Below are positions 1,932-29,018 of a DNA stretch of 31,892 bases, piece after piece. Under the pieces are notes generated by a model, which saw nothing but the letters and a program-made list of their open reading frames with translations, had not been told where the DNA came from and ran no database searches. Each line of letters opens with the position of its first letter. The stretch's first letter is position 1. The position numbers and the translations under genes are program-made. This DNA comes from a virus. The stretch spans positions 1 to 31,892 of the IMG/VR virus record IMGVR_UViG_3300042691_014858, one strand, 5' to 3'.

Positions 1932-3338
1932 TTAAAAATCATTTAAAAAGTTAGTATTATTTTGAATTGGTGGCAATTGTTCCGGTGTTTCGTTTTCATT
2001 TCTAAAATCTGTATATTTTCCAATAAATTTATACATATTCGTAAAAATTGCGCCGTGTCTATTTTTAGACTTTTTAATTAATGCTTTGCCGCGGACGTCT
2101 AATTCTTGACCGTCTATTAATAGCGTGTCGGCTCCGTAATATTGTGGTCTAAATAGGAAATAAACCTCGTCGGCGTCTTGTTCAATGTCCCCGGAATCCC
2201 GTAAATCCGATAATTCAGGCATACGTTTTTCGATTGGCCTTTCGTCAACTTTTCGAGATAATTGGGACAAAGATATGATTGGGATATTTAATTCCTTTGC
2301 TAATTGTTTTATTTTACGGCTAATATATCCGACTTGGTTAACCTTTTGCCCGGCGTACTCTTTTGTATTGATTAATCCAATATAATCAATGACTAATAAT
2401 TCAATGTTAAAGTCCCTTTTAAGTTTACGGGCTTTTGAACAAAGGCGCTCAATATCAATTCCGGCGGTATCGTCAATATATAATTTCGAACTTTTTAACT
2501 CGTTTATTCGCTTATATAAGTCGTTAACATCCGAGTTGTTTAATTCGCCGTTTTTTAATCGTTCGGAATCAATTTCGCATTCCGCCGACGCGATACGTGT
2601 TAATAATTGTTTTGCTGACATTTCAATTGAAAATATTGCGGCGGGGTTGTTGTTTTTAATACACTCACGTAGACAACGCAATACAAACGCCGTTTTCCCC
2701 ATTCCGGGACGGGCGGCAACTATTATCGAATCGGAATTAGTAAATTTAATATCTTTTAAACCACTTTCGACGCCGTCCGGGTGCAATCCTTGCCTTTTCT
2801 TTTCTATGTCCTCCAAAAATTCGTCCCCTATTGCCGCAATGGTTTTAAAATCTTTGTCCTCCGCTAAATCCTTTTCAATTATATTTAATTTGTTTTTTAC
2901 TTCGTCGATTAGTTCGAAAATATCCTCGTCCTCCCGGTATGCCCTAACTGTTATATTTGAGGTTAAAACAATTATTTCGCGCGCGATATACTTTTGTACT
3001 AAAATTCGGGAATAATACTCTATATTAACAGCCGACGCAATGCGATTTGTTAACGAACTAACATAATACGAACCGCCGACAATATCCAAAACGTCCATTT
3101 TTTGCAATCGTTTACAAATTGTTAAAATATCAATTGGCGACTTTTCATTTAATAGGTTTAAAATAGCTTTATAAATTTGCTCGTTGGCCTCTTTGTAAAA
3201 GTGTTCGGGTTTCAATATTGAATTTATAATATAAATCGATTCAGATTCCAATATTAGACAACCTAAAACGGCCTCCTCAATCTCAATGTCATTTGGTGGC
3301 ATTTTTTGAATTTCTGTTATTTTTTTACCCGGTTTCAT
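1932..3338 (-). CDS. dnaB: Replicative DNA helicase, DnaB family
   Basis: A 468-residue protein with the full DnaB layout. The N-terminal helical domain (about 15-125) begins PPNDIEIEEAVLGCLI. A linker helix follows (about 130-185), then a RecA-like motor domain. Walker A is ARPGMGKT at 209-216 and Walker B is LLVIDY at 314-319. SLSQLSRKVDERP lies at about 356-368 and LSDLRDSGDIEQDAD at about 376-390, the DNA-loop and arginine-finger regions of the family. It should form a hexamer that unwinds the phage fork 5' to 3'. Its start lies 14 bases inside the upstream initiator gene, a common loader/helicase pairing. Length is normal for the family. Confidence 0.95.
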   Translation of the reverse strand: MKPGKKITEIQKMPPNDIEIEEAVLGCLILESESIYIINSILKPEHFYKEANEQIYKAILNLLNEKSPIDILTICKRLQKMDVLDIVGGSYYVSSLTNRIASAVNIEYYSRILVQKYIAREIIVLTSNITVRAYREDEDIFELIDEVKNKLNIIEKDLAEDKDFKTIAAIGDEFLEDIEKKRQGLHPDGVESGLKDIKFTNSDSIIVAARPGMGKTAFVLRCLRECIKNNNPAAIFSIEMSAKQLLTRIASAECEIDSERLKNGELNNSDVNDLYKRINELKSSKLYIDDTAGIDIERLCSKARKLKRDFNIELLVIDYIGLINTKEYAGQKVNQVGYISRKIKQLAKELNIPIISLSQLSRKVDERPIEKRMPELSDLRDSGDIEQDADEVYFLFRPQYYGADTLLIDGQELDVRGKALIKKSKNRHGAIFTNMYKFIGKYTDFRNENETPEQLPPIQNNTNFLNDF

Positions 3339-4011
3339 GTTTTCCCAATTTTAAAGTATAATTTGTTGTTTGTTGTTGCGTGTCTTTTGTTTTTATGTAA
3401 GGCAAAGTATTTAATAATGTCGATTGCCAATTTACAATTTTTTTATCGTTTCCGTTTTTCCAACCGTTCGCGAACCAACTATCGTATTTTAATTTTAAAG
3501 ATTCCAAACATACGTTTTGTTTTTTAGTTAAAGCATAAATTTTAAATTCCTCAAATTCGGGGATTTTAATTTCCTTTTTATTTTTACTTTCTCTTTCTCT
3601 TTTAGTTTCTCTTTGGTTCGGTATAGGCTTTACAATTTTTTCGTCAAGGCTTTCAAAAGGCTTTAATATAGGCTTACCGTTAGGCTTTATATTAGGCTTA
3701 CTTTTTTTACCGCCGTTACGGCCTCCGCGCACTAATTTTAAACGACTTTCGCAACTTGGAATAAATAAAATATTGTCCCTAAATTCAATTAAATTTAATG
3801 CAATCAATTTATTTAAAATGAAATCCAAATCCTCAATTGTGACGCAAAATTTACGACTCCAAACGTCTTTTTTAATTTCTGTTTTATTATCGTTTAACAT
3901 TGCTAAATCGATAAATTCGCGATATAAACCTCGTTCGCTTAAATTTAATTCAAATACATTTTCTGAATTTCCCCAATCTTTTGGGTACCATGTAAAGCCT
4001 AATTTAGTCAT
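3325..4011 (-). CDS. Phage replication initiator / helicase-loader-like protein
   Basis: A 228-residue protein. Residues 5-95 (FTWYPKDWGNSENVFELNLS, then ERGLYREFIDLAML) match the DUF1376/YdaU-like winged-helix domain of phage replication proteins. A low-complexity basic linker (96-145) contains KP pairs every four residues. The C-terminal part (about 150-215) has FEEFKIYA, YDSWFANGW and NWQSTLLNTLPYI, the usual end of Bacteroidota phage replication proteins. By position, just before and overlapping dnaB, it probably binds the origin and recruits the helicase. The linker coding sequence carries a DNA repeat array that I interpret as the origin, as in lambda gene O. The domain call is solid; the precise biochemistry is inferred. 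Confidence 0.8.
   Translation of the reverse strand: MTKLGFTWYPKDWGNSENVFELNLSERGLYREFIDLAMLNDNKTEIKKDVWSRKFCVTIEDLDFILNKLIALNLIEFRDNILFIPSCESRLKLVRGGRNGGKKSKPNIKPNGKPILKPFESLDEKIVKPIPNQRETKRERESKNKKEIKIPEFEEFKIYALTKKQNVCLESLKLKYDSWFANGWKNGNDKKIVNWQSTLLNTLPYIKTKDTQQQTTNYTLKLGKHETG
3623..3701. other. Probable replication origin: iteron array inside the initiator gene
   Basis: AGGCTT (mostly within TAGGCTTTA) occurs at 3625, 3647, 3658, 3670, 3682 and 3694. Spacings are 22, 11, 12, 12 and 12 bp, about one helical turn or two. Five copies are in the same codon phase (encoding K-P), but the one at 3647 is shifted by one base and still keeps the motif, in codons for E-S-L. This suggests the DNA, not only the protein, is conserved. 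A/T- and pyrimidine-rich DNA flanks the array (about 3580-3612 and 3701-3708). Lambdoid origins lie inside the initiator gene in the same way. Confidence 0.6.
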
Positions 4012-4234: not shown

Positions 4235-4270
4235 AATAATAATGGTTTTAAGGAAACCAATAACTTTAAA

Positions 4271-4296
4271 TAAAAAAAACCACGCCGTCAGCGTGT
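4271..4296 (-). terminator. Rho-independent terminator-like hairpin (partial operon stop)
   Basis: On the minus strand CACGC-TGACG-GCGTG forms a 5-bp GC-rich hairpin followed by G and eight T (complement of the A-run 4272-4279). It lies in the 141-base gap between the 53-residue ORF (4376-4537) and the gene at 4004-4234. It should end or weaken transcripts coming from upstream. A second weak hairpin (CGGAT/ATCCG, about 4341-4356) and a TATATTTG box (4367-4374) lie in the same gap, but no matching -33 TTTG was found. Confidence 0.6.
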
Positions 4297-4375
4297 GCGC
4301 GCCTCCGGCAATGGTTTTAAAAATGTTTTTTATTAAAATACGGATCGCACAATCCGAATAGTTTTACAAATATAA

Positions 4376-27791: not shown

Positions 27792-29018
27792 ATGCAAGAC
27801 ATTAATTTCCTCCCGGAATGGGTAAACCGTTTTTTTGGTGGCAAAAAGCAACAAAGAAAGTATTATTTTGAATCAAAAGTAAATTATCAAATTAACAAAG
27901 GGGCATTATATATAGACACGTCCGTGCCTTACGATTTATATAATACAATTCCGCAACTTCGAACGGTTGTCGATAAATTGGCCTCAATGTTTAGTAACGG
28001 CGTTTTCAAAATTGAGAACATTAAAACAAATCAAATCGAACCTTTGCCGGAGGATTTGCAAAAGTTATTAGAAAACCCCAACCCGTTACAACCTCAAAAC
28101 GAGTTTTTAAAACAGTATTTAACGCAATTGATCGTTTACGGTAATCAATTTATTTATAAAAATAAGCCGTCCAAATTGCAAAAATACCCGTCGTCAATGT
28201 TAAATGTTTCGCCGGCAAATATAAAACCTATTTTAACGGGAAAAGTTTTCGAGCAATTAGATATTAAAGGTATTGTAAAAGAGTACGAATATACGGAGGG
28301 TTTAAGTTATAAGCGTGTATTTGACGTTAGTACTGTATTATGGTCTAAAATTGCGGATTTAGACAACCCCGTTGCGGGATATTCCCCATTAAAGGCTATG
28401 AAATACCCGTTATCCAATACGGTGGCGGCTTATCAATATCTTAACGTTATATCCTCCGAAAAGGGCGCGATTGGTGTTTTGTCAACTAGCAACAAAGACG
28501 CAATGGGAGCGTTACCAATGACGGCGGACGAAAAGGCGGAAATCGAACGAATTTATAGGGAGGAAAACGGAATTGAGGACAATCAAAAAAAGATTCATAT
28601 AACAACGGGTTCCGTTACTTGGGCGCCTATGTCGTACCCGACAAAGGATTTATTATTAATGGAACAAATCGACGCTAATTTCCTAATTATTTTAAATATA
28701 TTAGGCGTTAACCAAAATTTGTTTATTAATTCGACTTACGAAAATCTTAAAAATGGTTTAGTTCAAACGCATAACGACACGGTTGTTCCATACGCGGACG
28801 GATTTACGCAAGCCCTGACAAAGTTTTTAGAAATCGAACCGGGTAAACGTTTAATATTAGACTATTCACATTTACCGTATTTACAAGTTGACGAAAAAAT
28901 AGAGGGGGAAAAACTGACAAATGTCATCAATAACGTTAACAGTTTATTAAATACCGGCATTATAACGCCAACGCAAGCAAACGAAATTATACAAAATAAT
29001 ACAACGCTATTGAGTTAA
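27792..29018 (+). CDS. Portal protein, HK97 family, on the opposite strand
   Basis: A 408-residue product. It contains LPEWVNRFFGG, YDLYNTIPQLRTVVDKLASM, LIVYGNQFIYKNKPSKLQK and LGVNQNLFINSTYENLKNGL, the family's crown-to-stem pattern. The C-terminal part is helical and Asn/Thr-rich. The portal forms the dodecameric DNA channel at one vertex. In most HK97-like phages it lies between terminase and protease on one strand. Here it has that place but is reversed, with its own -7 box (27746) and terminator (29047-29071). No frameshift was seen. Function is firm; the orientation is unusual. Confidence 0.9.
   Translation: MQDINFLPEWVNRFFGGKKQQRKYYFESKVNYQINKGALYIDTSVPYDLYNTIPQLRTVVDKLASMFSNGVFKIENIKTNQIEPLPEDLQKLLENPNPLQPQNEFLKQYLTQLIVYGNQFIYKNKPSKLQKYPSSMLNVSPANIKPILTGKVFEQLDIKGIVKEYEYTEGLSYKRVFDVSTVLWSKIADLDNPVAGYSPLKAMKYPLSNTVAAYQYLNVISSEKGAIGVLSTSNKDAMGALPMTADEKAEIERIYREENGIEDNQKKIHITTGSVTWAPMSYPTKDLLLMEQIDANFLIILNILGVNQNLFINSTYENLKNGLVQTHNDTVVPYADGFTQALTKFLEIEPGKRLILDYSHLPYLQVDEKIEGEKLTNVINNVNSLLNTGIITPTQANEIIQNNTTLLS

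Follow-up and report, generated by a model that had tools for sequence, protein, structure and literature searches.

A frame-independent iteron ladder inside a phage initiator gene as the predicted core of the replication origin

Iterons placed within an initiator gene are already known from lambda O, SPP1 gene 38 and pSK41 rep. In Stx phages and lambda, the iterons of O lie in the middle of the initiator gene and adjoin an A+T-rich unwinding tract, and among lambda-type O genes the number of iterons varies (4 or 6), which alters the length of the protein (PMC7466680). In SPP1, gene 38 encodes the origin-binding protein and contains oriL with its direct repeats and A+T-rich unwinding element, and the helicase genes belong to the same replication set (PMC6316719); SPP1 differs in having a second origin, oriR. 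The Rep protein of pSK41 uses a winged-helix amino-terminal domain to bind boxes in the central part of its own gene, rep; the linker that the origin encodes can be dispensed with at the protein level, and the carboxy-terminal domain contacts the replication machinery; in pPR9, the amino-terminal domain and the origin have been swapped as one block (PMC5703833).

We analyzed a viral record of 31,892 nt (IMGVR_UViG_3300042691_014858; referred to as the window, with position 1 as its first letter). The likeness to lambda gene O that had been claimed for this locus was confirmed, in that iterons and an A+T-rich tract lie inside the initiator gene here too. The locus resembles the pSK41-type RepA_N system in having a modeled winged helix, a linker encoded by the putative origin and a carboxy-terminal domain. 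When 29 members of the family were compared with Pfam-A, none matched Phage_rep_O, RepA_N (PF06970) or the replisome-organiser families. RepA_N structures (4pt7, 4pql and 5kbj) were among the top Foldseek matches, with nonsignificant E values of 0.02 to 0.14. In the literature searched, which included few subscription journals, we found no description of this initiator family, of a dense 6-bp ladder, of its frame independence or of a coupling between arm and motif.

The initiator gene and its iteron ladder

The features of the locus are collected in Table 1. The start of the helicase gene and the end of the initiator gene share 14 nt. In the AlphaFold2 model of the initiator, residues 153 to 214 are helical and residues 103 to 145, which bear the array, are disordered (pLDDT below 50), in agreement with the original placement of the array in a linker between two domains. 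Conservation among homologues is strongest in the winged-helix domain. The window initiator itself gave no Pfam or NCBIfam match above the cut-off. In the Pfam-A scan of the 29 members, DUF7833, a domain of unknown function, was matched by 9 in their carboxy-terminal part (best E value 6e-11), and DUF1376 was matched weakly, below the cut-off, by 6 (best 0.023). Searched alone, the amino-terminal domain matched predicted phage DUF1376 structures (Foldseek viral E values of 2.2e-4 to 8.8e-4), and the modeled window initiator has the same fold as the DUF1376/Lin1244_N superfamily. A sequence profile search of the PDB with the initiator returned nothing relevant and matched no initiator; fold matches in the PDB were to functionally diverse winged-helix proteins, including RepA_N; none was significant, and they were not taken as evidence of family membership. 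Searches of the named phages in INPHARED by tblastn with the window initiator or with two homologues (L077 and L082) matched nothing.

Table 1. Features of the initiator locus in the window
Feature	Coordinates	Strand	Basis or remark
DnaB-type replicative helicase gene	1932..3338	minus	Pfam DnaB_C 7e-76, DnaB 3.5e-28
Replication initiator gene, 228 aa: winged helix, linker, helical carboxy-terminal domain	3325..4011	minus	ORF, AlphaFold2, Foldseek
Carboxy-terminal domain, residues about 153-214	3370..3555	minus	AlphaFold2; exchanged among homologues
Purine-biased A+T-rich tract, candidate DNA-unwinding element	3553..3612	minus	77% purine, 75% A+T (coding strand)
Iteron 6 AAGCCT, in frame (K-P)	3625..3630	minus	
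Iteron 5 AAGCCT, out of frame (E-S-L)	3647..3652	minus	11 bp from iteron 4, 22 bp from iteron 6
Iteron 4 AAGCCT, in frame (K-P)	3658..3663	minus	
Iteron 3 AAGCCT, in frame (K-P)	3670..3675	minus	
Iteron 2 AAGCCT, in frame (K-P)	3682..3687	minus	
Iteron 1 AAGCCT, in frame (K-P)	3694..3699	minus	
Basic arm RGGRNGGKKSKP, residues 95-106, candidate specificity element	3694..3729	minus	
Winged-helix DNA-binding domain, residues about 16-91	3739..3966	minus	AlphaFold2 secondary structure H-H-H-H-E-E-H

The original prediction listed six AGGCTT motifs, and all six are present (the lower coordinates of iterons 1 to 6 in Table 1), reading AAGCCT on the coding strand. Five of them were correctly described as in codon phase, with AAG CCT encoding K-P, and the copy at 3647 is out of phase as GAA AGC CTT. 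Helical spacing had also been proposed. It holds roughly, with steps of 22, 11, 12, 12 and 12 bp in order of increasing position, and exact phasing is absent in the window: in-frame copies stand 12 bp apart, a distance bound to the codons, and steps of 11 or 22 bp occur only around the out-of-frame copy. Lambda iterons are units of about 18 bp and thus longer than the 6-bp cores found here, one per helical turn. When codons were shuffled with the protein kept, 0.37 copies of AAGCCT were expected against the 6 observed (p=0.0003, the floor of the test). No 6-mer of the window other than AGGCTT and the overlapping GGCTTT reaches four copies within 60 bp.

An array of this kind might regulate transcription, as an autoregulatory operator for the initiator or as an operator for another phage protein, rather than serve as an origin. 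Binding sites alone prove no origin, and a gene for a Cro/C1-type HTH protein lies close by (1719-1928). However, the array lies about 310 to 390 nt inside the initiator gene, away from its start; it is always found in the initiator gene and is followed by the purine/A+T tract; and the class of its motif is tied to the basic arm of the same gene. An operator is, on these grounds, an unlikely explanation of the ladder. In a promoter scan, the count of promoter-like sites was at chance expectation, and GC skew around 3.6 kb followed the coding strand and gave no origin signal.

Several other features of the window were recorded. Right where the initiator gene begins (3990-4002) lies an inverted near-copy of the iteron plus its flanks (13 nt, 92% complementary), perhaps by chance, as homologues there encode G-Y and not G-F. 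Upstream of the initiator operon, AATGGTTTTAA occurs in two copies 69 bp apart (4241-4320) with a terminator-like hairpin between them (4281-4295, minus strand). The portal protein gene (27792-29018, plus strand) runs in the opposite direction to almost every other gene of the phage, including those for terminase, capsid and replication.

The motif and its codon frame among homologues

Pattern scans yielded homologues at more than 100 viral loci, of which 50 were non-redundant. Had the K-P repeat been what selection preserved, its codons should have been free to drift, and such synonymous drift of the motif was not seen: in linkers of the AAGCCT type, the proline codon of the K-P pairs is CCT in 160/162 cases and the lysine codon is AAG in 161/162, whereas CCT encodes just 9 of the 41 spacer prolines in the same linkers. 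The out-of-frame copy is kept in 24 linkers, where GAA, GGA or GTA is followed always by AGC and then by CTT, CTA or CTC; in the out-of-frame copy of two near-copies, AGA precedes AGC. The preceding residue and the last base thus vary while the six motif bases are constant, and the spacing of 11 and 22 bp around this copy is preserved in nearly all cases. In three homologues (L125, L128 and L133), the whole ladder stands in another codon frame and encodes K-A and E-A repeats. The claim that the DNA itself is selected, with the motif constant while the codon frame drifts, is therefore upheld across the homologues.

Codon shuffling gave p=0.0003 in most members. Pooled p-values overstate the significance because the relatives are not independent, and a test on each representative, reported below for all families, is the safer measure given that the members are related. 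Motif clusters are confined to the initiator gene in 228/230 cases, and the other two lie just after a broken copy of the gene in L080, a homologue in which the reading frame of the initiator is broken and the motif cluster is still present downstream. A further homologue (L070) retains K-P with AAA CCT; all of its copies have changed together and the invariant TCG is present, so that in sequence comparison the codon change reads as a motif switch, like that of its K-P/E-P class.

These data bear on the possibility that the KPxx linker is selected as protein, as a flexible or DNA-coating tail, and that the DNA repetition follows from repeated residues or from slippage. Most copies are indeed in frame and encode K-P, and a protein repeat alone would partly yield the 12-bp lag of the first family (222 of 627 matches expected). 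It would not, however, account for a motif that persists in other frames, for the replacement of K-P by K-A, E-A, E-P or K-G, for synonymous sites that are fixed in the motif and free in the spacers, or for the 11-bp period of the second family described below, which is not a multiple of the codon. Among the 50 homologues, no K-P member has freely drifting, uncoordinated codons. We consider selection for the protein repeat highly improbable. Tandem slippage as a cause was rejected, since the spacers vary while the cores do not. The homologues show that the DNA motif and its spacing are under selection, and the ladder yields the K-P repeat as a by-product. The dual use of a KPxx repeat as an iteron ladder, which the original prediction had put forward, is contingent, as other members encode KA, EA, EP or KG repeats.

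Basic arm, purine tract and exchanged domains

Most of the 50 non-redundant homologues carry AAGCCT (class A), four mix AAGGGT with AAGCCT, and eight carry CG[A/G]AACCT (class B, CGGAACCT). In class B, all copies have switched together to CG[A/G]AACCT, and the serine codon is TCG in 29/29 cases within the arrays against 4/135 elsewhere. The basic arm beside the DNA-binding domain differs accordingly in form: R[G/A/S]GxxGG is found in 42/42 members outside class B, and a shorter arm, SRGGKx.., in all 8 class-B members and in 0/42 others. On the tree of the DNA-binding domain, class B requires four changes by parsimony, at least two of them on well-supported branches, the number of independent changes being uncertain. 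We infer that arm and array are co-adapted, though adjacent elements may simply travel together.

Every array is followed by a purine-biased A+T-rich tract, and the purine maximum of the gene falls at or near the end of the array in the members. Within the tract, arginine is encoded by AGA or AGG in 79/82 cases against 174/335, and isoleucine by ATA in 125/154 against 232/620, both showing a synonymous lean to purines. The K/E-rich composition of the linker explains part of the purine content of the tract but not these arginine and isoleucine codon choices.

The carboxy-terminal domains encoded behind the array form 10 clusters, with no similarity detectable from one cluster to another. The downstream gene varies as well and encodes DnaB-like, primase-helicase-like or small proteins, as judged in the relatives from length and first residues. 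In the pair L051 and L057, the amino-terminal domain (identical in the tree) and the motif class are common to both and the carboxy-terminal clusters differ. From this pair and other carboxy-terminal exchanges, it follows that the binding domain forms a single module with the array and the tract: the array and the purine tract go with the DNA-binding domain, and the carboxy-terminal domain is exchanged behind them. That the carboxy-terminal domains change just after the array, as in L051 and L057, would also suit a repeat that merely aids module exchange as a recombination junction and has no binding protein, but such a junction is very unlikely, as it leaves unexplained the helical period, the concerted changes of motif and arm and the purine-biased tract.

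Further families and the proposed origin

A second family includes a cultured phage, Cellulophaga phage phi19:1, whose gp031 (L148:10713-11456) is annotated as a hypothetical protein and lies two genes before a primase/helicase. Its linker contains AAACC units at offsets 337, 348, 359 and 370, exactly 11 bp apart and in frames 1, 0, 2 and 1. This DUF1376/Lin1244-type protein resembles the window family in its winged-helix type, by structure, in its embedded ladder and in its purine tract, and differs in iteron sequence. Most of its viral relatives (L155 to L196) have AAA[C/G]C units laddered at exactly 11 bp and rotating through all three frames, and here too a purine tract follows the ladder. 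A "longest chain" statistic computed gene by gene had too little power when arrays were short, and lag counts were used instead. In the second family, self-matches of 5-mers numbered 130 at a lag of 11 bp (8.4 expected) and 118 at 22 bp (9.0 expected), and no other lag was comparable in this motif-blind count. Relatives of Flavobacterium phage morran9-1 form a third family, with peaks at 10 to 11 and 22 bp and another motif. When each representative of the three families was tested separately (33 representatives with less than 75% identity in the binding domain), p was below 0.01 in 29/33, compared with 1/311 control stretches from other genes; the signal was weak in L138 and L324. Homology between the second and third families is supported by hhalign (99.9%), whereas the window family and the second family gave a nonsignificant hhalign probability of 6 to 8%, and the proposed link between the window family and the other two is drawn from the predicted fold, not from sequence. 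In Cellulophaga phage Nekkels_1 (L203:2501-3337), whose initiator belongs to the second family, an unrelated sequence stands in place of the linker and the second-family motif is absent; this phage may use another iteron or another origin.

One genome belonging to the Flavobacteriaceae group around Aestuariibaculum contains a copy of a homologue, indicating that at least one member resides there as a prophage. Aestuariibaculum marinum (L082:4001-4744) carries a distant homologue with five AAACCC in the linker, in all three frames and followed by a purine tract; codon shuffling gave p=0.0012 for AAACCC and 0.024 for any 6-mer. In 299 genomes of the Flavobacteriaceae group, a non-exhaustive search for generality returned 3 matches to DUF1376 (L149 to L151) and 3 to Lin1244_N. 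No significant ladder was detected in the two Lin1244_N genes examined, L152 and L153, and the ladder is thus not universal in the wider superfamily.

The original prediction of a probable origin is supported by DNA-level selection and by anatomy, the origin itself being read from anatomy and comparison. The array is probably the ladder to which the initiator itself binds and, embedded in the initiator gene, the core of the phage origin. We infer binding of the initiator to these units, melting of the tract and a start of replication at the array. Mechanistically, the winged-helix domain and the basic arm would bind the AAGCCT units, one molecule per helical turn (11 to 12 bp), and the bound initiators would build a nucleoprotein filament on the ladder. 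The filament would strain and open the adjoining purine/A+T-rich tract, and the carboxy-terminal domain, via the linker encoded by the ladder, would recruit the next-door phage helicase or primase. Beyond the window, we lean slightly towards a general reading, in which at least three families of winged-helix initiators in Flavobacteriia phages would have a linker written by a frame-blind ladder of sites roughly one helical turn apart, the basic arm would set specificity, and DNA-binding domain, arm, ladder and unwinding tract would form an exchangeable origin cassette.

These findings allow origins to be predicted in a large group of phages, most of them uncultured, in which the initiator genes are still annotated as hypothetical, and the ladder can be used for finding origins in raw sequence. 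The paired changes of iteron and arm make the specificity between initiator and origin directly testable. The locus is also a natural experiment in which one stretch of DNA has to serve as both origin and protein: the DNA takes precedence, and the repeat in the protein is its consequence.
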